Source: Monodelphis domestica (taxonomy: Eukaryota > Chordata > Mammalia > Didelphimorphia > Didelphidae). Taken from it: 64,000 bases of DNA. The notes under the pieces were generated by a model. It saw only the letters and a list, made by a program, of their open reading frames with translations. It did no database searches and had not been told where the DNA came from. Where the stretch lies: NCBI RefSeq assembly GCF_027887165.1, contig NC_077235.1, forward strand, positions 5,572,378 to 5,636,377, given 5' to 3'. Position 1 is the stretch's first letter, and every line of letters begins with the position of its first letter. Positions 1-64,000 of the stretch are shown in pieces. The translations under genes and the position numbers were made by a program.

Positions 1-2531
1 CCTCAGTTTCTCCAGGCTGTAAACAGAAGGGAAGAGTACTATAACCCAGATCTCCATTTACGGGCTCTTGTGAAAAGGAACAGAGTCCCAGCAGAGAAAA
101 GCCGAGGAGCATTAATGCAGCTTTGGGGCCAAAGGGAGACCTGAATCCCCCTCCACACAGAAGGTCCCAAAAGCAGCCTACCTGGCTGCCACACTAACCG
201 TGCAAACTAAGCAGGGGCGGACAATAGCATCACATGATCCCAGGGGCTGGGCCCTGACCTCAGGCACTGTTCCCCAGCAGCTAGTCAGATCCTAAGTCGG
301 CCGAGGTGCCCGCGGGGCCCTTCCTAAGTCAGTCTCACGGTCAGGTCCGTCTGTCCCCTCACACACAGCCTGTGCTCGCTCGCACGCATGCCCCCACGCA
401 CGCACGCACCGGCGCACAGGTGGCTAGGAGCCCAATCTAGGCTCCCCACAGGCTCGGCGGCTCCTTTCTTTCGCAGCCCCTCGGGGGTGAATCAGAGAGG
501 GCCGGGCATTCCTGCAGGAGGCTGCCTTCTCTTGCACAAACTGTAAGGTCACTCAGAAATTCCAGCGAACAATGACTGAAAGAAACCTCAGACCTGGGCA
601 AGGGTTCAACAATTGAAAGGAGGTGGCTGCTTTCTTTACAAACAAAAATAATCTTTTTTCGCCAACGTTTTCGCCTTTTCTTTGCTTAACAAAGCATTCA
701 ATCAATGGCTAACCCTAGTGGGCCGAGAGGGAGCTCGGCAATCAAGGAGGACAAAGGTTTGGACCTCTTCCGGCGGCGCTCTTGCCCGGACTCCCATCTG
801 GAGGGCTGCGCGGCTGAGCGCGGCTCCCGGGTGCAAGCTTTATGTTCCTCCCCGCTTTCTCATGGGGGGACTCTTTCGGTGGCCCCGGCTGCTCTAAAGT
901 TCTCCCATTTTGATTCTTCCTCTTTTTTCTTTTCTTTTCTTTTGGGGGGAGGAGGGGAGGAGGGGAAATAAAAGGATTCTTTTTTCTCTTGAGCTCACCG
1001 GCTAATCTCCAGACCTTCTTGGAGCCTCCACTGCTGGAAGGATTTAGCCGCAATTTGCTCAAGGGTTCCTCTCTACCCCCAGCTCTGTCATTTGCGGATT
1101 AAGGAGCGAATTTCCACCTCTAATTGGGGGGCTTCCTGGCAGAGGCACCCACGAGGCCGCCGGCCCAGCCTGGCCTCCTTCCGCGCAGCCCCGTTTGCCC
1201 ACCACGCCCTGCTGCTCTGCATGCGAGCTCCCTTCTCCCACAGTCAGAGTCCAGTCAGAACAAAGCCACCCGCTTCCCCACCCCAAAAGCGAGGGGCCTA
1301 GGTCTCAGGGGCGCAGGCAGCACACAGGGCCACACGAGGCATACCCGCGGAAAGAAATCTTGCTAAGAGGCCCGCTTTCCCGGATGGGCTTTTTCCGGGA
1401 TGGAGAGATCAGCAGATAGCTGAGAGGGAAGAGACAAGGAAAAGTTATTCTCCTGGAATTTTGGCGTTGAAATTTCCCCGGTGGGGGGGGGAATTTCCCT
1501 CACTGGCCCTCAATTATTTATTTAGAAAGATCAAAGGGCTTTTCCCATCCACATTCAAGCTCTAAATACCCTGGGAGTTGGGGCAGATCACAAACAATAC
1601 CGGTGAATGACTTCTGAAAATAGCTTTCCTGAGGAGGCGGGTGGGCCACTGAAGCCACGGGCTGGAGCTCCTGCCCCCCCCCCCCAGGACAGAGAGAGAA
1701 AACGCCGGGCCACCGCCCCCTCTCAGCGCCCGTCCAGCTTCCCTGACGCCAGCCTAGCCACAGCTCCCTCTCATCTCCCTGGGGACAGCAGGAAGGACCC
1801 CACCAGCCCAGACTGGTGCTGTCCAGTGGCCCACTTCCGGCTCCTGCCCCATATCGGGCCAGTGGCTCAGGAGGGTCTGGACTTCATACCTCACCTTCAC
1901 CCTATTCTTCCCCCAAAGGGGCCTCTTCTCCTGAGGCACCTCTGGGACTTCAGGCCAAGGGGACGCCGTGGGAAAGTGGCAGAGCTCAATTTAGAGCCCT
2001 TGATTGGAGAGTAGGAGCTCAGCTTCTCTCTACTGCACTACCTGGAGTGATACCCCAATAATTCTCCACTGCCTAGGTCCCTCACAGGGAGTGCAAGCAA
2101 CAAAAGACCAATCCACCAGCCCGGTCTCCTGAACTCCAAGCTGTTGGGTTTCTCTCCTCTCATTGAGCTTGGTGGATAATAATAATTCAGCTGGCTTCCC
2201 TAGACAAAGGCAGAAGTGCTGCCAGACAGATCACAAAATAGGGGTGAGCAGGAGGAGGGAGCATTAGCACATCCTCAGCACTCTACAAAATGGAAGAAAA
2301 CACTTCTGCGACCAAGGGGTCCAACTCGAGTTCGAGATTGGACTTTAGGAGTGCCTGGGATAGTAGGCATTCAATATAGTGGTTGAGCTAGAAGGTCAGG
2401 GATTGGGGTGCAGAACAAGAAGCTACCCCCCCCACTCTGAGATTCTTTCCCATCCCATCTCTTAAAGTGCCCCCAAACTACAAGAGATAGTATGGACAGG
2501 CAGAGCGGTGCAGGGCAGAGACACTGCTCAC
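1..2531 (-). other. AMOT: AMOT intron (downstream of the N-terminal coding exon)
   Basis: The donor GTGAGC is at 2526-2531 and the intron continues out of the window to the left. No further AMOT coding segment was recognised here. The stretch 280-1400 is CpG-enriched and is listed separately. Short C and G runs occur at about 1484-1491 and 1675-1686. The other open frames here look like chance frames in GC-rich sequence. Confidence 0.8.
280..1400 (-). promoter_or_regulatory. CpG-enriched intronic segment, candidate alternative AMOT promoter
   Basis: CpG clusters lie at 300-490, 660-840 and 1140-1210, against a CpG-poor flank. A minus-strand donor-like GCCG|GTGAGC occurs with the junction between 999 and 998, so an exon covering roughly 999-1300 could splice to downstream AMOT exons. 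A shorter angiomotin isoform (p80) lacking the N-terminal exon is known in mammals, and this is where its first exon could sit. The assignment is inference only. Confidence 0.3.
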
Positions 2532-3487
2532 CTGCTTGCTCCATACTCAGGGGGATGCTGGTACCTCATCATGGGCCCCTCCATTCTTCCAGGCTGGCTC
2601 ATCCGATGTTCACTGAAGAAGTGCCCAGGTTCCTGGGGCTTGCAGACCAGAGATGGGTTGGGCAAACCCTTGAAGGGATACTCAGGAGGTGGGCCCCGAT
2701 GCTCCATGACCTTCAGACTGGGCTGAGCTGCTGCCGGCCCTGGGTTCTTATAGAAGTCGCCAGAAGTGGCAGGGCTCTTATAAAGGTCACCAGGCTGGGG
2801 TGGGGAGTGTGGAGAGCTTGTCACAGGGGCATGAGCCTTGACCCCGCTGGTGGCCAGTGACAGCTGCATCAGGCGCTCACTGAGGGAACGGACATGGCCT
2901 TGCTTGAGATCTCGGAGCCCTTCATCCTGGTGGACCTTCCCCGGGTTGAGCCGCTGTACCGCGGGCCGTCCCTCTGTTCTCATCTTCTGGTTAGTGACCC
3001 CAGTGACATAGAAGGCAGCCCCAACGCTGGCATGCTGCTGGCCTCGAAAGTACTGAGACTGGACCTTGGCTTCCTCATAAGTGGGCAGATCCTCACTATT
3101 CTGCCTACGGGAGGGCAGCTGCTTCTCCATGACGTTGTTGTCTACCTGGATCTCTTGACCCTGGGGCTCTTGACGGGCAGCATGGGCCCCGAGTTGCTGT
3201 GGGTGTGAGTGTGGGTGCACGTGCGGGTGTTGGTGCGGGTGCACATGAGGGTGCTGGTGTGGGTGCTGGTGCTGGTGGGGGTGCTGATGATCTTGGGGGT
3301 TCATCCCCTCCCCTTGAGATCCAGGGCTCCCGCCCCCACCACCAGGGAAAGGGGGAGCATTTCCTGTGGCTTGTTGGTGTAAGGCCAGGAGGTTACGATT
3401 ATCATTGGGGTTCCCATAGCGTAGCTGCTCCTGCAGCAGCCGCTGCAGCACAGTAGGGGTGGCTGGTGGCTCTTCGGAATTCCTCAT
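2532..3487 (-). CDS. AMOT: Angiomotin (AMOT), N-terminal coding exon of the long (p130-type) isoform, partial
   Basis: Angiomotin is a junction and actin scaffold that binds YAP/TAZ and is phosphorylated by LATS kinases in the Hippo pathway. The exon encodes 318 codons plus two bases, from the MRNSEE start (ATG at 3485-3487) to PPEYGAS. Visible motifs are the conserved block [15 protein letters not shown] (13-27), a histidine-rich insert (67-96), a tankyrase-binding-like RQEPQG (105-110), the three WW-binding motifs LPTY (134-137), PPEY (267-270) and PPEY (312-315), and the LATS site HVRSLS with Ser203. Recalled human positions for these motifs (106, 239, 284, Ser175) are all exactly 28 lower, so the insert accounts for the length difference. 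The acceptor is a long pyrimidine tract ending TTTGCAG (intron ends 3547); the donor is AG|GTGAGC (intron starts 2531). The open frame continues left of the start to 3619, but that part is intronic. The coiled-coil, lipid-binding and PDZ-ligand parts are outside the window. Confidence 0.96.
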
Positions 3488-3546
3488 CTCCAAAGCTGGG
3501 GCCTTGTGGGTGGAGAGTAAAAGTGGCTGCTTGGGCTGCCCTTGAC
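3488..3546 (-). other. AMOT: AMOT 5' untranslated part of the coding exon
   Basis: Between the acceptor AG (3547-3548) and the ATG lie 59 bases. They are open in the ATG frame but contain no other ATG. If they are joined to the leader exon ending at 19929, the frame meets a TGA at 19936-19938, so the MRNSEE methionine is the first in-frame start. The start context has G at -3 and A at +4, which is moderate. Confidence 0.85.
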
Positions 3547-3751
3547 CTGCAAAGGGGAAAGAGGGAAAAGCTGAATTAGGGAACCGATGAGAGAATTCAG
3601 GCTCTCCCACTCCAGCCAAACAGACTTCTGGTCAACTAGTGCCCTGGGGGATTGGGGTGGCCAGTGTCTAGAGTGTTGGGCTTAGGGTCAGGAAGTCTGG
3701 GGTTAGAGTCCTGCCCACTGCCATTCCCTAGCTAGGTGATCCTAGGCACCA

Positions 3752-54599: not shown

Positions 54600-55375
54600 G
54601 ATCATAGAATCATAGATTTAAAGCTTGTCCAGCTTCACATATTAGATCTTTATCATTATATTATTAGAGACCTGGAGTTGAACCCCCTCATTTTACAGAT
54701 GAAGAAGCTAGAGCTCAGAACTGTTAAGTAAGTTTCTCAGGGTGACACAGCCAGGAAGTGTCTGAGACCAGATAGTGTGAATTTTAAAAGTCTCCATCTT
54801 GGTCTAGCACCCAAAAAATTGTGCACACCCACACTACACGGGCATGTGCTAGTCAATGACAAATAAGAAATAACTAACTGCCCACCTGGGCTGTCCTAAG
54901 CCAAGCTAGAGCCACCATTGGCACATGTGAGGCACAGGAAGTGAGGTAGGGAACAGCCTCTGGAATTCGCTCACTTCCTGTGGAGAGAGCGAGACATGAG
55001 TTCGTGTTAGAAGCTTGAACAGAGAGGAGGCCCGCAGACAGCTTCCCTTCAGATCGGTCACGTGAGTCAAGGACTGATTCCTTCCACCTTGGCCCTTTGG
55101 GCCTAAACTCCCTCTGCCTTGGTCAGAGGTTGAGTAGCCCCTTTCCCTTTTCTCCTCTCTCCTTCTCTCCCTCTCCTTTCCCTACTCCCAGTGTGATTAA
55201 ACCTCCATAAACTCCGTTCTGACTTGAGTGTTTCATTTTAGGAATTTCATAAGTAAATTCCTTGGCGGCCATTGTTCAATATTACATCAATCTTAAAAGG
55301 TGAAATTTTCACCACAACAGTAGGAGACCTGTTTTCTGGCTCTCCAAGTCCAGTGCTTTCTTGATCAGACTAGCC
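54600..55375 (-). mobile_element. Antisense MIR split by an LTR
   Basis: The left arm reads CCCCTCATTTTACAGATGAA, TTCTCAGGGTGACACAGCC and TCTGAGACCAGAT. The right arm (from 55320) reads TAGGAGACCTGTTTTCTGGC and CCAAGTCCAGTGCTTTC. Together they make a normal MIR order. Confidence 0.7.
54776..55319 (+). mobile_element. Solo LTR of an endogenous retrovirus (544 bp)
   Basis: It runs from TGTGAATTTTAAAAG to CACCACAACA (TG..CA) and sits between two arms of one MIR. An ATTAAA signal at about 55196 and the CTCCGTTCTGACTTGAG region after it suit the R/U5 part. Flanks ATAG and GTAG would be a 4-bp duplication with one change. No internal viral genes are nearby. Confidence 0.7.
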
Positions 55376-55424
55376 TGAGAGGGAACAGTCCAACAATAAA
55401 GAAAATAGAATTGATGAAGGAAAG

Positions 55425-56018
55425 TCAGATGAAATCAGGTTGGAGGAGTAAGTGGGAGCCAGCTAGGTAAGGGAGTTGAATCCCAAGTTGAAGTGTTTGT
55501 GGAGATGATAGGGAGCCACTGACACTTCTTGAGAAGGGAAGTGCATTGGGCAGATTAATTTGGCAGTTACATGGTGGGTTTGGGGAGGGGTAAGACTCAA
55601 GGGAGGAAGACCAATGTGGAAATACATCTTGGACAACTGCACACTTATAATCTATATCAAGTTGCTTGCCTTCCCAAGGAGGAGGGAGGGGAATTTGGAA
55701 TGAAAAAAGAATGCTAAACATTATATGTAATTTTAAGAAATAAAATAGAAAACATTTAAAAAGTGGGAAGACCAGTGATGACACTATTATTATATAGTCC
55801 AGGCAAGAAGTGATATAGACAGATGATCATGAGAGTGGATAGAAGGGGGCAGATATGGTGGGTGAAGGAAAGGAGGACTCCGGAAATAGAAACCGAGGCA
55901 GTCTGGGAATGTGGGTGGTGGTGCCCTCAACAGCAATGAGAAGGACCTTATGGGAGGTGGGGGTGGGAGCTGGAAAGATAAAGAATTCTGTCTTCCATGT
56001 CTTGAGCTTGAGATGTCA
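55425..56018 (-). mobile_element. L2 LINE, antisense, left part
   Basis: It reads ATAGGGAGCCACTGACACTT, AGTCCAGGCAAGAAGTGATA, GGTGGTGGTGCCCTCAACAG and GTCTTGAGCTTGAGATGTC, the antisense of L2 ORF2. It is interrupted by an L1 tail (55617-55765) and, on the right, by the RAB39A copy. L2 sequence resumes at about 57293. Confidence 0.7.
55617..55765 (+). mobile_element. L1 3' end fragment
   Basis: It contains TCAAGTTGCTTGCCTTCCCA, AGGAGGAGGGAGGGGAATTT and an AAATAAAATAG tail, a marsupial L1-type 3' end. Target duplications GGAAGACCAATG and GGAAGACCAGTG (55605-55616, 55766-55777) differ at one base. Confidence 0.85.
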
Positions 56019-57274
56019 TTACTATTATCTTATCAAAATGTTTGATTTTTTTAGTTTCCTTTCTTTAAAATTATTGGGAATATAATATTCTGATTGTAAT
56101 CTCAGCTATCTATATAAAACTTAAAAAATATATTTCAGAAGCAGTAAATCAATAAAGGAAAATAATATTAATATAATATATAATTTCTTCACATTCAACG
56201 CTTGTTAAAATATGAGAATGCATGAAAATCTGGTCCCTTGAAAATGGACTTCAGTTTTAGTCCTAGTCAAAATCTTTGATATGTTAAGTTGCTAAGTAAA
56301 TATTGCACTTTTCTTTACAAATATTAATGTCTTCAAAATTATATTTTTCTGCTTTAACTATTACTATGTTATCATCTTAATAGTTAAATATCTTATAAAA
56401 GGATGCAAAAACAATGATTAGTGACTCAGGCAAATCAATGATTTTTATGCTTTCATAATTATAATTTTGCTCTTAAAGATGGTATTTGTCCTAAAACAAA
56501 TACCTGATGTACTCATACTCATTCTGGAGCTGCTTATGAATTCAGCAAATACATTGTTTCATAGGTTTGGCTGCTTCTTCTGAAGAATGCACAATATTTG
56601 GAACAAAACCACTTTTAACCCCTTCCCAGCCATCTTGAATACAAATTTCTCCTGTTTTAATAAGTTCATATATATCTCCTGTCAGAATTGTGAAAGATTC
56701 TTCAACATTTGCAGCATCTTTTGCTGAGGTCTCTATATACTTCATACCATAGGCTGCTGACATTTTTTCAGCTTCTTCCCTTGAAACTTGACGTTGTGAC
56801 ACTAGGTCACACTTATGTCCCACTAACAGAAATACAATCCGAAATGGTTGCACATACATTTTGGCTTCTTCTAACCAATCTTGTACATGTTCAAAAGATC
56901 TCCGGTTTGTGATATCAAATACCAGAAATCCACCAACAGAGTTGCGGTAATAAGATCGAGTTATTGATCTGAACCTCTCCTGCCCGGCCGTGTCCCATAG
57001 CTGCAGCTTGATTCTCTTGCCAGGCTCAATCTCCAGGAGGCGAGAGAAGAAATCCACGCTGACTGTGGGGTCGCAGGCAGTGGACAGCATCCTGGGAAAG
57101 CAGCCCTGAGTAAAGTGGTGCAGGAGGCAGGACTTGCCCACCGTGGAGTCGCCGATCACAATTAGCCAGAATTGGTAGATCCAGATGGCCTCCATGGTTC
57201 ACATCCCGTTCACACCCGCGGGGCTCTGGAGCTGGAGGATGTGCCTCTGGGTCCAGCTACCTGGGCTGGGGCAG
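56019..57274 (-). mobile_element. Retroposed RAB39A mRNA copy (whole insert)
   Basis: The insert carries a 79-nt 5' UTR remnant (57196-57274), the frame, and a 523-nt A+T-rich 3' UTR. A perfect 18-bp target duplication CTTGAGCTTGAGATGTCA lies at 56001-56018 and 57275-57292. The target is an antisense L2, whose sequence is continuous once the insert and one duplicate are removed. The expected poly(A) tail next to the left duplicate is only a degenerate T-rich stretch on the plus strand (56019-56065), so the insertion is not very recent. Confidence 0.93.
56542..57195 (-). CDS. RAB39A-like: RAB39A retrocopy with complete 217-codon reading frame
   Basis: RAB39A is a small GTPase of endosome/phagosome traffic. 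This copy has the family's full length (217 residues) in one frame, whereas RAB39 genes are interrupted by an intron, so it is a processed copy. Visible motifs are the P-loop GDSTVGKS (15-22), switch I DPTV with Thr44, WDTAGQE (67-73), GHKCDL (126-131), ETSAK (155-159) and the geranylgeranylated CxC end (CIC). It resembles RAB39A rather than RAB39B (METIW/MEAIW-IYQF, ACDPTV, KMYVQPFRIVFLL). Odd residues compared with recalled human RAB39A are Trp10, His27, Cys32 and Gly173 where Arg is usual, and Ser46 in place of the very conserved switch-I glycine. Several could be CpG transitions. The start context is strong (A at -3, G at +4). No nearby promoter was recognised. It is either a functional retrogene or a pseudogene still open. 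Confidence 0.93.
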   Translation of the reverse strand: MEAIWIYQFWLIVIGDSTVGKSCLLHHFTQGCFPRMLSTACDPTVSVDFFSRLLEIEPGKRIKLQLWDTAGQERFRSITRSYYRNSVGGFLVFDITNRRSFEHVQDWLEEAKMYVQPFRIVFLLVGHKCDLVSQRQVSREEAEKMSAAYGMKYIETSAKDAANVEESFTILTGDIYELIKTGEICIQDGWEGVKSGFVPNIVHSSEEAAKPMKQCIC

Positions 57275-57292
57275 CTTGAGCTTGAGATGTCA

Positions 57293-59480
57293 ATGGGCCA
57301 TTTGGGTGGAATTCTCCAGCAGCTAGTTGGTGACCTGGGACACAGGCACAGCAAAGAGATTAAGGCAGGCTATTGAGACTTGGGTACCAAGTACCAGTGA
57401 TATAAGCAGAAAAGTGAAACAACCCCTGTGCTCAAGGAGCCTCCATTCTAATGGGTTGGGGGGAGAGAGTCAAAACATATGGGAGGTTTTAGATGAATCT
57501 CGATAGTCCTATAGTATAGGTTCAGCAGTAACCATTGATGAAATCTTATTGGTCTCTGACACTGAGATATTTAATGGCATCAGGAATATACTGGGTCTTT
57601 AGTAGCTGTGGTTGCTTTGGGGGCAGGGGTAGGGGGTAGTCTAGGATGGCTGAAGTACCCACAGAGCCAATTGCTAGGTTGTATCACCACAAAGGTGGCT
57701 TCCTTGGGATTTGGAAGTGGAGGCCAGGCTGGAAGCAGGGTCAGTGGCCTGGGATGGTGGGGTGGTGCTCCTGCTCTTCCCAGCCCATTGATAGCAGTTG
57801 CTGGTAGGCCCCCTAGATGATGACTGCTCCAAATCCAAGTCCATTTTGTCCCCTTTGTTGTTCATCCTTCTTCCGGCTTCAGTGGAGAGCATAGGTGTCC
57901 TCAAAGAGAACATCAATTTACCCACTTCTCTTGTGGCTTTGGAATTAATCTCCCAGAAGCCCCATCTCTTGAGTCATGTGATCTTACTCTGATGCCATGT
58001 TGGACCCGTGTTCAGCATGTGCAGTGATCCCCAAGCCCAGGCGAGAGGACAATCCTTCCATCTTTCTGTCCTGGGCAGCTGGGTGTATGCATACATAAAT
58101 CAGTCACTTTTGTTGTTAATAATTAACTGAATGTGAGCTCTATCTAAGAAAGGAAAACTGTATACCATGCCACCTGGCATCCCAAACAGGAGCTGACCAG
58201 GCATAGGTGCCAGTCCATCTGGATCTCAGCCTGAGTATACGGCTCCTGAGATAGTCCTGTGCGAAATGTCGTGAGGGTGGAGGCAAGGGTTTGGGCTGGT
58301 GGTACATGGGGACCTCATTGCCTGGATGATAGTGGCTGGAACTAGAAGAACCGACTTTCTGAAAAATAGAAACCTGAGCAGCAAAGCCCACCTCAAGATA
58401 CAGTTACTCTTTCTATAGTAGGGAAGGGCAGGGGTAGAGCCCAAGGCAAATAGTACATGGCCTATATGGTACTCTGGGCTAGGTGGGGTTGGGCTGCTTG
58501 AGCTGATTTATCTGTCACTAAGTCAACTATCATCCTCCCCAGAGTCAACTGAGGAAGAGTAAAAGGTTGCCGTGCAGCAGTGAGGGGCCACTTGAGGTGG
58601 TATGAGTTTGAAGTGGTTGGATTTCCTAAGCACTGGAGTCAGGGTGGAGAAGGTGGATGGTCAAAGTGTTGTAGGCTTGAGAAATAACAGGGCAGGAATT
58701 ATGGGAGAACAAACAGCACAGGCTTCAAGGATGGAGGCTGGAGCACCACTTGGACCTGGGAAAAGCGCTCCGTATGGAAATAGCAGGCCTCACTGAGGTT
58801 GAAGGGGATCTGCCCTCTGCCCTCTTGCTACTGGGGCTGGGGTTCCCTGCCTGCCCTCCTTTGTACATCAGACATGATTGAATCTGCTCATTGCATGCCA
58901 GGTGGGCTGGGCTCTTTGGGGACAAGTTGACCTTCTCTGCATCCCTCAGACTGCTGGGACCCAGAAGCCTCTTGGAGAGAGTTCCACGTGGGGATTTCAG
59001 TGATCAGGGCAGCCTTCTGATGTGGGGCTTTGCTCTGTTGGGGATGAGGGTGGCACCTACCTCCCAGGGTGGCGAGGGGATGCCATGAGATAAGACTTGT
59101 AGGCACTTCGCACACAGGAAGGGCCAGAGGAGCGGCCTTGGAATGGGAAGGCCTGGGCTCGGGCCTTGTCTGCTAACATAGCCATAGGAGCCGGGGAACG
59201 TGTGCCTCAAGTGTACTGGTGGGGGCAGCTCCCTACATTCTTGAAAGGCCAGGTCTTAGTAGGAAGGGGGAGGGATTGTTGGACCCCAGAAGTAGTGCTG
59301 TGGCCTCTGGGGAAGGGAAGAGCCTTCCCCCCCCCAATATGGCCAGTTCCACCATCCCAGGTTGCCACTTTCCCTTTCATTAAGGCCCTGGCTGTTGGGA
59401 GAGCCACCTCCAAAGCCACTTCTTTGGCAAAACCCCGTGTGAGAAAGGCTTGGAAGGTGACACGAAGCAGAGCCAGTCTT
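57293..59480. other. No gene recognised
   Basis: The first 100 bases finish the antisense L2. The rest has no strong repeat signature and no recognisable exon. Frames of 60-107 codons overlap on both strands without domain content. Confidence 0.5.
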
Positions 59481-60620
59481 TGCCACTAGAGTGTTCCAGA
59501 CCCTTCCTTTGCTGCGAGCAGGCTTTGTTAGGCAGGAGTGGGAAGGGGGAGACAGCATGAAGGCACTAGGCACCCGAGGAAGCTGGGCCAGGGTCCGCAG
59601 GAGCGGGGATGCTGCCGCAGGGGCGGGCAGGCGAGCGCGGAAGATCACTTGGCTCCCTCGGGGCGGAGGGATTCTAGGCTTGAGGCTGGAAGGAGCCCCG
59701 GGCATTTGCATTCAAGGGAAACGCTCCGAACTGTCTTTTCAGTGAACCAGAACTGCTTTTCGCTTTTTTACTCCCCCTCCCCGATTTGGAAAAGAGAAAG
59801 AAATTCCCTCGTGGGCACAGGCAGCAGCAGCTCGCGCGGCCCTCCATGTCTGGCGGAAGGTGGGAAGGGGCCGCTCACTGCGCTGCTCCCGCTCTGCTTT
59901 CTCTCTTCCTTGGTTCTGCAGCTGAGGACGCTGGGCCAGAGGACAAGCGACTTCCCTTCCCTCCACTTTGAACCCAGGGCCCGGGACTCCAGAGCCTCTC
60001 CCTGCCACTGTGCCTGCTTCTCCCAAGTCCGGGTGCGTCGTGCCTCGTCGGCCCCAGACTGAGTGCCATCTCGTGGGCCCAGTGAGGGGCTTGGGACGGG
60101 CTGGATAAGGCACTGGCGAGCCAGCCCGCTCCTGGGGGCCGGGATGGAGCAGCGCGCAGAGGAGGCACGTCTGGAGAACACGCTCGCTCGGAATCAGCGA
60201 GTGGCTGCGAAGGAGAGGCTGGGGGGCTCGCTTGCTTGTTCCCTCGCTCCCTCGCTCCTTCCGCGGCTCCTTCGCCCAGCAGGCCCATCTTAATTAGACT
60301 CGGGCAATCAGCGTGCATATGGCAGCCCCCTCACTGGGAAGCTGCTAGCAGGCTGACTTCGTGAAAGCTCCACGCGCGGCGGGACGAGATGAGACGGGGG
60401 CTCCTAGCGGAAAGGAGCTTGCCATTATCTCCGACGGGGCTCAGCCCTGCTGCCTTCTACAGCCTTGCTAGCCCGGCTCGCTGCCTCATTATGCAAAGCT
60501 GCCCCCCCTCCCCCAAACGAGCTAGCGAGCAAGCGAGAGATCGCACAATGGTGAGCACATGGTGGCCATGGCGCCTGGCTCCGCGGGGGACAGTGATGCT
60601 TGGGTGGCTACAGCTGGAGA
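59480..60620. promoter_or_regulatory. Second CpG-enriched segment, candidate promoter or enhancer
   Basis: CpGs cluster at 59575-59670, 59815-59885 and 60030-60280, and again at 60370-60600. Within it are a homeodomain-type CTTAATTAGA (60290-60299), an octamer-like ATTATGCAAA (60488-60497) and repeated GCTCGCT/CTCGCTCC words. Plus-strand donors ATG|GTGAGC (junction 60550/60551) and AGG|GTGAGT (61080/61081) follow. There is no coding exon that I can defend. Confidence 0.35.
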
Positions 60621-61321
60621 TGGAGAGAGGGAAGGGCTCTGGGAGCCCACTTGGACTTGCAGCTTCACCCAGAGGGGCCTGGGCTCATTCTGAGCACGCT
60701 TCACCTTAGTGCTGCCCACCTGCAGCCCCGCTTCAACGCCCACCCGGAGCCCCTGGAGCTCTGCAGAGAGGTATCGAGGCACACTTAGGCCTTCTGCAGA
60801 GGAGCTGCTTCGAGAAACTTCCCTGGCAGGCTCCAGAAAGGCCTCCCCCTTTCCCAAATAGCTGGGGATGCTGAGGGGGGATGCCAGGCTTTGGGCAGCA
60901 GCACCCCAGCCCTGGACACACTCGCAGGGCACTGGTCCCAGCCCGAGAAAGGAGGGAGCTGGGGCTGGCCTAGGACCCCCAGAGGACAGGGACACTCAAC
61001 TCCCAAGAAGACTCGAAGCTCAGCGCTGCTGGCTGTCACTCCCCAAAGAACCATCCCGAATAGAGGCAGAGCCACAGAGGGTGAGTCGGAATGGGGACTG
61101 AACAGGGGCAGCAAGGGAGGGCCAGGTGTGGGCGGGGCCCACAGAGTCCTTAGATGGGGCAGGGCCAGGACCCCAGGGTGTCCCTGAGCACTGCACTGAG
61201 GCCTCACTGGGCTTCAGAGCTTTCTCCATGAGAACCCAGGCTTGGACTAGAGGGGCACTGCCAGGGCCTTCTAGCTCTGCAGCTCAGGACCTCGGATGTA
61301 CCAGGGGCCCTTCAGCAGACT

Positions 61322-64000
61322 CTGTGTGTGAGACAGAGAGATGCCCTGAGAAACAGAGAGAGAGGGAGGGAGGGGGAGAGAGAGACAGACAGACACAATG
61401 AACAGGGAAAGAGGGAGGAAGAGAGAAAAACACACAGAGAAGCAGAGGAAGAGAAGGAGGGAGGGGCAGAGAGAGACAGACAGACACAGAGAAACAGAGA
61501 GAGAGAAAGGGAGGGAGACAGACAGAGAAAAAGAGACAGACACAGAGAAACAGGGAAAGAGGGAGGAAGAAAGAGAAAGACAGAAAAACAGAGAGGAAGA
61601 GAGGGATGGAGGGAGGAGAGAGAGACAAAGAGACAAGCAAAGACAGAGAGACAGAGAAAGAGACAGAAACAGGGGGGGGAAAGGGAGGGAGAGACAGAGA
61701 GACAGACAGAAATAGAGGGGGAGAAAGGGAGGGAAAGACAGATAAACAGACAGAGAAAAAGAGACAGACACACACAGAGAAACAGAGGAAGACAGGGAGG
61801 GAGGGGGAGAGAGAGACAAAGAGACACAGAAAAAAGAGAGACACAGACACAGAGAAACAGAGAGAGAGAGAGAGAGACAGAGACAGAAACAGAGAGAGAA
61901 GGAGAAACAGAGGGAGAGAGAGACAGAGAGACAGAGAGAAAAAGACAGACACCGAGAAACAGAGAGAGAGAAAGGGAGGGAGACAGAGACATACAAACAG
62001 GAAGAAAAGGAGGGAGGGGAGAGAGAGACAGAAAAAGAGACACACAGACACAGAGAAACCGATAGAGAGGGAGAGGGAGGGAGGGAGGGAGAGAGATAGA
62101 CAGAGAAAAAGAGACAGAGAAAGACACACAGAGAAACAGAGAGGAAGAGATGGAGGGAGGGGGAGAGAGAGACAGAGAGAAAAAGAGAGACACAGACATA
62201 GACAAAAAGAGAGAGTGTGAGAGAAAGAAAGAGAAAGACACAGAGAGAGACAGAGACACAGAGACACAGAGACAGAGGGGAGAAAGGGAAGGAGAGAGAG
62301 ATAGATAAAGAGAGACAGAGAGAGAAAAAGACAGACACAGAGAAACAGAGAGAGGGAGGGAGGGAGAGACAGAGAAGCAGAGGAAGAGAAGGAGGGAGGG
62401 GCAGAGAGAGACAGACAGACACAGAGAAACAGAGAGAGAAAGGGAGTGAGACAGAGAAAAAGAGACAGACACAGAGAAACAGGGAAAGAGGGAGGAAGAG
62501 AGAGAGAAAGAGAAAAACAGAGAGGAAGAGAGGGATGGAGGGGGAGAGAGAGACAGACACGCAAAGAGAGAGAGAGAGACAGAGAAAGAGACAGAAATAG
62601 AGGGGAGAGAAAGGGAGGGAGAGACAGATAGACAGAGACAGACAGAGAAAAAGAGACACACACAGAGACATACACAGAGAAACAGAGAGGAAGAGAGGGA
62701 GGAAGGGGGGAGAGAGAGACAAAGAGACAGGAAAAAGAGAGACACAGATACAGAGAAACAGAGAGAGAGAGAGAGACACACAGAGACAGAGACAGAGAGA
62801 GAGGGAGAAAGGGAGGGAGAGACACAGAGAGACAGAGAAAGAGACACAGAAACAGAGAGGGGAGAAAGGGAGGGAGAGAGAAAGACAGAGAGACATAGAG
62901 AGAAAAAGACAGAAATAGAGAGAGAGGGAGGGAGAGAGACAGAGACACACAGAGAAACAGAGGAAGAAAAGGAGGGATGGGAGAGAGAGACAGAAAAAGA
63001 GATACACAGATATAGAGAAACAGATAGAGAGGGAGGGAGAAGGGGGGAGAGTCAGAGACAGACAGAGAAAAAGAGACAGAGAGAAATAGAGGGGGAGAAA
63101 GGGAGGGAGAGAGAGACAGATAGACAGAGACAGAAATAGAGAGGGAGAGAGGGAGGGAAAAAGGGAGGGAGAGACACAGAGACAGAGAAAAAGAGAAAGA
63201 GAGGGAGACAGACACAGAAACAGAGGGAAAGAGGGAGGAAGAGAGATAGAGAAAGATACACAGAGAAACAGAGAGGAAGAGAGGGAGGGAGGGGGAGAGA
63301 GAGACACAGAAAAAGAGAGACACAGACACAGAGAAATAGAGACAGACAGACAGACAGACAGAGACAGACAGAGAAAGGGAGGGAGAGACACAGAAAGACA
63401 GAGACAGAGACAGAAACAGGGAGGGGAGAAAGGGAAGGAGAGAGAGACACACAGAGAGAAAAAGATAGACACAGAGAAACAGAGAGGGAGGGAGGGAGAG
63501 AGAGACAGAGTCAGACAGACACAGAGAAACAGGGAAAGGGGGAGGAAGAGAGACAGAGACACACAGAGAAACAGAAGAAGTGAAGGAGGGAGGGGGAGAA
63601 AGAGACAGAAAAAGAGACACAGAGAGAGAAAGAGAGAGAGGGAGAGAGACAGACACAGAGAAACAGAGAGAAAGGGAGGGAGAGACACAGAGAGACATAC
63701 AGAGAAAAAGAGACAGAGAGACAGAAACAGAGGAGGGAGAAAGGGAGGGAGAAAGGCAGACAGACAGAGAAAAGAGACACAGAGAGACAGAGACAGACAG
63801 AGAAACAGAACGGGAGAGAGGGAGCGGGAGAGAGACAGGAGACACAGAAAAAAGAGAGACAGACACGGAAAAACAGAGAGGAAGAGAGGGAGGGAGGGGG
63901 AGAAAGAGACAGAGACAGAGAGACACAGAAAAAGAGACAGACAGAGAAACAGAGAGGGAGGAAGAGAGACAGATAATGATAGACAGGCGCAGAGACAGAC
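61322..64000. repeat. GA/CA-rich purine array with higher-order period near 0.9 kb, runs off the window
   Basis: The array is made of words such as GAGAGACAGA, CACAGAGAAACAGAG and GAAAGGGAGGGAGA. Long identical phrases recur: AGCAGAGGAAGAGAAGGAGG at 61441 and 62376 (935 bp), GAAGAAAAGGAGGGA at 62001 and 62963 (962 bp), and the GAGACAAAGAGAC block at about 61814 and 62717 (903 bp). At least two higher-order units are therefore present. The 805- and 880-codon minus-strand frames are artefacts of this composition. Confidence 0.93.

Follow-up and report, generated by a model that had tools for sequence, protein, structure and literature searches.

A tailless, 3'-truncated RAB39A retrocopy with an open reading frame, probably a young pseudogene, on an X-like contig of Monodelphis domestica

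The 64,000-nt stretch of Monodelphis domestica DNA analysed here (the window; C9:5572378-5636377) contains an intact reading frame for a Rab-type GTPase, and the question arises whether this frame is open owing to function or to youth. The window's list of open reading frames (ORFs) holds at this place a single minus-strand frame of 217 codons and 654 bases, the product of which belongs to the Ras/Rab family (PF00071, E 4e-53) and has Rab39B as its closest relative of solved structure. The best named proteins by E-value, among the best 120 of 6842 listed, are vertebrate Rab-39A sequences with 88-90% identity. A search of the genome (3.59 Gb, 13 contigs) revealed a two-exon RAB39A gene on C4 at 246.93-246.96 Mb, exon 1 being matched at C4:246961063-246961368 and exon 2 together with the 3'UTR at C4:246931782-246932737. 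The intervening intron of ca. 28 kb with its GT and AG ends (TTCAG/GTATGG at the 5' and TTTTTCAG/ATCAAT at the 3' splice site) is absent from the window copy, which comprises 1256 bp with the following features:

56019-57274, minus strand: RAB39A retrocopy (part of the 5'UTR, complete CDS, truncated 3'UTR), enclosed by exact target-site duplications (TSDs) and matching parent exon 1 and exon 2/3'UTR on C4
56542-57195, minus strand: 217-codon open frame, from the ORF list, the comparison with the parent and Pfam
57275-57292, minus strand: TSD, 5' copy in insert sense, exact in 18/18 positions
56001-56018, minus strand: TSD, 3' copy in insert sense, the first three bases of which (TGA) also match the parental 3'UTR (putative priming microhomology)
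56019-56541, minus strand: truncated 3'UTR of 523 bases without poly(A) tail, from its boundaries and the comparison with the parent and other copies
57196-57274, minus strand: part of the 5'UTR, 79 bases, by match to the parent
57060, minus strand: CpG transition leading to G46S in the switch I stretch; G in 19/19 relatives with homologous exon 1
57116, minus strand: CpG transition leading to R27H; R in 19/19 relatives with homologous exon 1
57168, minus strand: CpG transition leading to R10W; R in 18/18 relatives having residue 10

The edges of the copy are flush with the 18-bp TSD, TGACATCTCAAGCTCAAG in insert sense, whose two copies are identical and which occurs nowhere else in the window in either orientation. 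With the intron missing, a TSD on both sides and the parental locus elsewhere, the sequence is a processed retrocopy of RAB39A, and chance is not an issue. The first-pass annotation had described an intronless RAB39A copy with an intact 217-codon frame, identical 18-bp repeats around it and a CxC prenylation end, all of which is borne out, and it had made the retrocopy call dependent on a separate parental locus, which exists as the two-exon gene on C4. The possibility that the window copy represents the sole RAB39A of the genome is ruled out by this parent and by RAB39B, both found elsewhere.

The insertion is located upstream of AMOT exons and on the same strand. These minus-strand exons are found at the window's left end and in the adjoining sequence outside it, as indicated by the window ORF 2528-3619 (-), whose best named matches are mammalian AMOT (angiomotin) with 72-73% identity, and by further exons immediately left of the window (L022, C9:5560001-5570000). 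AMOT and RAB39B are both X-linked in human. As both reside on C9, RAB39B at 87.5 Mb with two exons 98% and 99% identical to those of bilby (Macrotis) RAB39B, this contig looks like an X chromosome. Given a parent on C4 and an X-like C9, the copy most likely arose by autosome-to-X retroposition, which had been suggested conditionally at first pass and is now supported.

Processed pseudogenes are mRNA retrocopies mobilised by L1. The window copy shares with them the missing intron, the TSD and the unlinked parent but differs in its missing poly(A) tail and its non-canonical target site. It stops within the parental 3'UTR without any A-run at its 3' end and, lacking the tail, is kept out of the poly(A)-tailed subclass of mRNA retrocopies. 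A comparison with four other copies in the genome (see below) covered 1500 nt past this end, where the parent is matched by L012 over 1500 nt, by L013 over 1485 nt and by L014 from 338 to 1500, the copy on C1 being without a match there. Because other copies match the parent ca. 1.5 kb further, the template mRNA was longer, extending at least ca. 1.5 kb past the 3' end of the window copy. The latter is thus a 3'-truncated, tailless retrocopy. The earlier view of a copy old enough to have lost its poly(A) tail has to be abandoned: the copy is 2.3% diverged, and the tail is missing because the copy ends inside the 3'UTR, ca. 1.5 kb short of the matches of other copies.

A proximal poly(A) site as origin of the 3' end is disfavoured, short of a strict exclusion, as neither AATAAA nor ATTAAA occurs in the last 57 bases of the 3'UTR or near the 3' end in parent or copy, and the only signal-like words are the weak variants AAGAAA, TTTAAA and ACTAAA. 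These variants, and the fact that most mRNA retrocopies have tails, would also fit a conventional history, in which a full-length retrocopy primed at the poly(A) tail later lost its own tail and the distal UTR by deletion. However, the UTR is flush with an intact 18-bp TSD, so that the deletion would have had to stop precisely at the TSD edge, and the copy is young; we consider such a history very unlikely.

Tailless retropseudogenes are a known class, for which Schmitz 2004 is cited in PMC5322556 and PMC2912911. At the junction of the window copy the parent runs on with AGTAATGATAAT, while the target duplication starts with TGACATC, which leaves TGA (3 nt) common to both. The target site AT/TGACATC (insert sense) has a W at the break and no A-run. 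For tailless retropseudogenes, TSDs, internal priming, a complementarity of 2-18 nt and L1 dependence are described in an excerpt of Noll et al. 2015 (PMC5322556), where the derived target consensus TT/WAAAAWW is treated as a statistical trend and not as a defining requirement; 3'-truncated tailless retrocopies between TSDs are also described in an excerpt of PMC2912911. Measured against the former account, the window copy is alike in its 3' truncation inside the source RNA, the absence of oligo(A), a perfect TSD within the range of 8-30 nt and a complementarity of 3 nt at the priming junction. It differs in its origin from a protein-coding mRNA, its complete CDS and a target without the A-run of the consensus, which it does not match.

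We propose the following scenario for the insertion. The spliced RAB39A mRNA from the autosomal C4 gene would have served as template for a LINE machinery, most likely that of L1, which would have used a nick in the X, upstream of the AMOT exons, as the starting point of reverse transcription. There, base pairing of the free target end with a UGA inside the 3'UTR of the RNA might have taken the place of pairing with the poly(A) tail, and cDNA synthesis would then have proceeded back across the CDS into the 5'UTR. A second-strand nick 18 bases off would account for the 18-bp duplication. Roughly 4-5 million years ago this would have produced a tailless copy with a truncated 3' end, on which mutations would since have accumulated neutrally, many of them by CpG decay in the GC-rich exon 1, though so far too few to close the frame. 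The internal priming itself is deduced from a 3-nt match that may also be chance, and in view of a target without A-run the nick may perhaps have been set by another endonuclease or been a pre-existing break.

The window copy is not the only one in the genome. The search gave 11 matches, a lower bound as it scores best candidates only, which correspond to the window copy, the two parent exons, the two RAB39B exons, five pieces at four further loci (C4:307.97, C5:19.88 with two pieces, C5:41.06 and C1:304.52 Mb) and a 43-base match on C7. In all three other loci with coding sequence exon 1 is fused to exon 2. These three older copies deviate from the parent by 7-12% in the CDS with 4-6 CDS indels each, altogether 145 CDS substitutions and 15 indels, 12 of them frame-shifting, and the window copy extends further 5' than any of them. 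A derivation of the window copy from another retrocopy is ruled out, as it differs from the parent in 29/1254 bases compared to the 7-12% of the CDS copies in the CDS. The copy at C5:41.06 (L014, C5:41056000-41061500) is broken off after CDS position ca. 455 and picks up far downstream in the 3'UTR. The C1 copy is a fragment of 475 aligned bases (the last 40 coding plus 3'UTR) with 4 substitutions; this sequence (L015, C1:304513900-304517400) is young, truncated at both ends and without obvious A-tail.

How long ago the insertion took place can be approached from the differences between copy and parent, which amount to 29/1254 aligned bases (2.3%) plus one 2-bp indel. With the other copies as outgroups, 13 of the 17 CDS differences fall on the copy branch, 3 are ambiguous and 1, at a CpG site, falls on the parent branch; the corresponding numbers are 1, 3 and 1 for the 5 differences in the 5'UTR and 2, 1 and 4 for the 7 in the 3'UTR. 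The wombat protein P0081 has the parental state at 4/4 of the replacements in exon 2. For dating we used 12 changes over 1135 sites, i.e. 9 non-CpG CDS changes, all assigned to the copy, together with 3 from the 3'UTR, the ambiguous one included. At the rate of 2.35e-9 per base and year found for the Virginia opossum in an excerpt of PMC13247528 this corresponds to 4.5 million years, a rough estimate given that the rate stems from another genus. The copy thus appears to be young, with an age of roughly 4-5 million years. The parental 3'UTR on C4 (L002) carries 4 derived substitutions and a 2-bp deletion, and the retrocopy has kept the older UTR state there.

An open frame in a copy believed to be old had been considered notable. 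The CDS changes consist of 10 nonsynonymous and 7 synonymous ones, and 8/17 lie at CpG sites of the parent. A model with CpG effect and transition bias predicts 12:5 under neutrality (12.1 nonsynonymous), conditional on no stop, with P(N<=10)=0.20. The dN/dS ratio against the parent, the calculation of which had been recommended, was estimated as 0.58 (approximate 95% range 0.24-1.6); the point value is below 1 but does not differ from it, and 17 changes provide little power. Selection on the frame is unsupported by this value. An omega of 0.06, a value picked to represent strong constraint rather than estimated from the parent, can be rejected (2dlnL 20), which suggests that the copy is at least much relaxed, while weak to moderate constraint on the frame may exist. 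In addition, the CDS does not change more slowly than the 3'UTR: for non-CpG changes the CDS has 9/612 and the 3'UTR 3/523 (p=0.16), and without the ambiguous UTR change the CDS is again faster (p=0.07). The neutral chance of no stop is 0.56. From the three older CDS copies, with 12 frame-shifting indels per 145 substitutions, 1.4 frame-shifting indels are expected per 17 substitutions, and the joint chance of neither stop nor frameshift is ca. 0.14. In view of these chances the open frame is unremarkable at this age, its changes fit neutral decay, and most likely it is open owing to youth and not to protection.

The predicted protein is identical to that of the parent in 207/217 residues. Its P-loop, WDTAGQE, GHKCD and ETSAK stretches, which we take to be the G1, G3, G4 and G5 GTPase motifs, as well as the CIC end are intact, whereas G46 in the switch I stretch TVGVDF is replaced by S; the claim that all core GTPase motifs are present therefore holds for the former and fails at switch I. 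There are 10 replacements. The alignment covered 20 relatives chosen from the 120 listed; of these, P0008 is without residue 10, and in P0081 there is no homologous exon 1. R10W, R27H and G46S affect residues invariant in 18/18, 19/19 and 19/19 relatives with a homologous residue, and P0081 has the same letters at the alignment positions of R27 and G46, though its exon 1 is not homologous. The replacements in exon 2 are milder, as positions 149, 162, 173 and 181 vary among relatives; C149Y introduces the residue of RAB39B, and G at 173 or T at 181 occurs in 0/20 relatives. Compared to the RAB39A/RAB39B GTPases the product is alike in its full-length frame and Ras domain and differs in R10W, R27H and G46S. 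Judged from these residues, it could be a working GTPase, though probably not a plain Rab39A.

We therefore regard the locus, with high but not complete confidence, as a young, neutrally decaying, tailless processed RAB39A pseudogene on an X-like contig, presumably without function. What speaks against this assignment is the lack of any stop or frameshift in 654 bases, a point omega below 1, the 1/17 CDS differences that polarises to the parent, and a target without the A-run of the tailless consensus, next to a 3-nt match that can be chance. The first of these, together with the CxC end, the point omega of 0.58 and a CpG island at 59601-60600 (GC 0.61-0.67, CpG o/e 0.63-0.75), situated 2.3 kb upstream with respect to the sense strand of the retrocopy, could instead reflect a young functional X-linked retrogene, putatively transcribed, perhaps from this island at ca. 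59.6-60.6 kb, and encoding a Rab39A-like GTPase with altered regulation. Since omega is indistinguishable from 1, three CpG-driven replacements hit invariant residues, including one in switch I, the CDS has not evolved more slowly than the 3'UTR, and an intact frame is compatible with chance (0.56 for no stop, ca. 0.14 with frameshifts included), we consider a functional retrogene improbable. A more specific proposal, that of a lineage-specific Rab39A paralogue which is expressed from the X under control of the CpG island, resides on the same chromosome as RAB39B and is turned by G46S into a dominant or effector-altered Rab39A, is hardly to be expected.

The CpG island might as well be an upstream promoter for AMOT or another transcript. 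A non-coding copy, putatively transcribed from the island at 60 kb or within an upstream AMOT isoform, could compete for regulators of RAB39A via the common 3'UTR, 523 bases with 7 substitutions and one 2-bp indel relative to the parent. The orientation of AMOT on the same strand and the upstream island would suit this idea; on the other hand, a second CpG island at ca. 19.4-21.2 kb of the window may be the AMOT promoter, and we give this possibility slightly less credit than the functional retrogene. Under the preferred interpretation as a neutrally decaying pseudogene, the locus provides one more mRNA-derived tailless retrocopy with complete CDS, here from a marsupial, and possibly a useful insertion marker within didelphids. 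It also serves as a caution, since chance may suffice to keep the frame of a young retrocopy open; greater importance would be attained only if expression proves true. A literature search for RAB39A and retrocopy, with most subscription journals outside its coverage, found no report.

The proposed location of the insertion inside an antisense L2 is unconfirmed, as nothing was found across the insertion point in ca. 270 kb searched, where the right flank alone had one weak match. An nhmmer search with the empty site as probe detected no second copy in the window, two matches (E 0.73 and 0.96) failing to reach inclusion; run against 23 loci plus the window without 55001-59000, it gave a single match at L024:7923-8009 (E 4e-4), covering the right flank alone. 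An Rfam scan of the window returned 0 matches at gathering scores, and Pfam assigned no family to seven other window ORFs (7/7). A short A-rich element at 55601-55790 is apparently nested in the left flank, with ends that are near-duplicates by eye (GAAGACCAATG and GAAGACCAGTG). At 61271-63926 a long purine-rich tract of low complexity (A 0.49, G 0.39, T 0.02) accounts for spurious ORFs with lengths of up to 880 codons, and the segment 31682-32422 resembles this tract, as judged from its translation.
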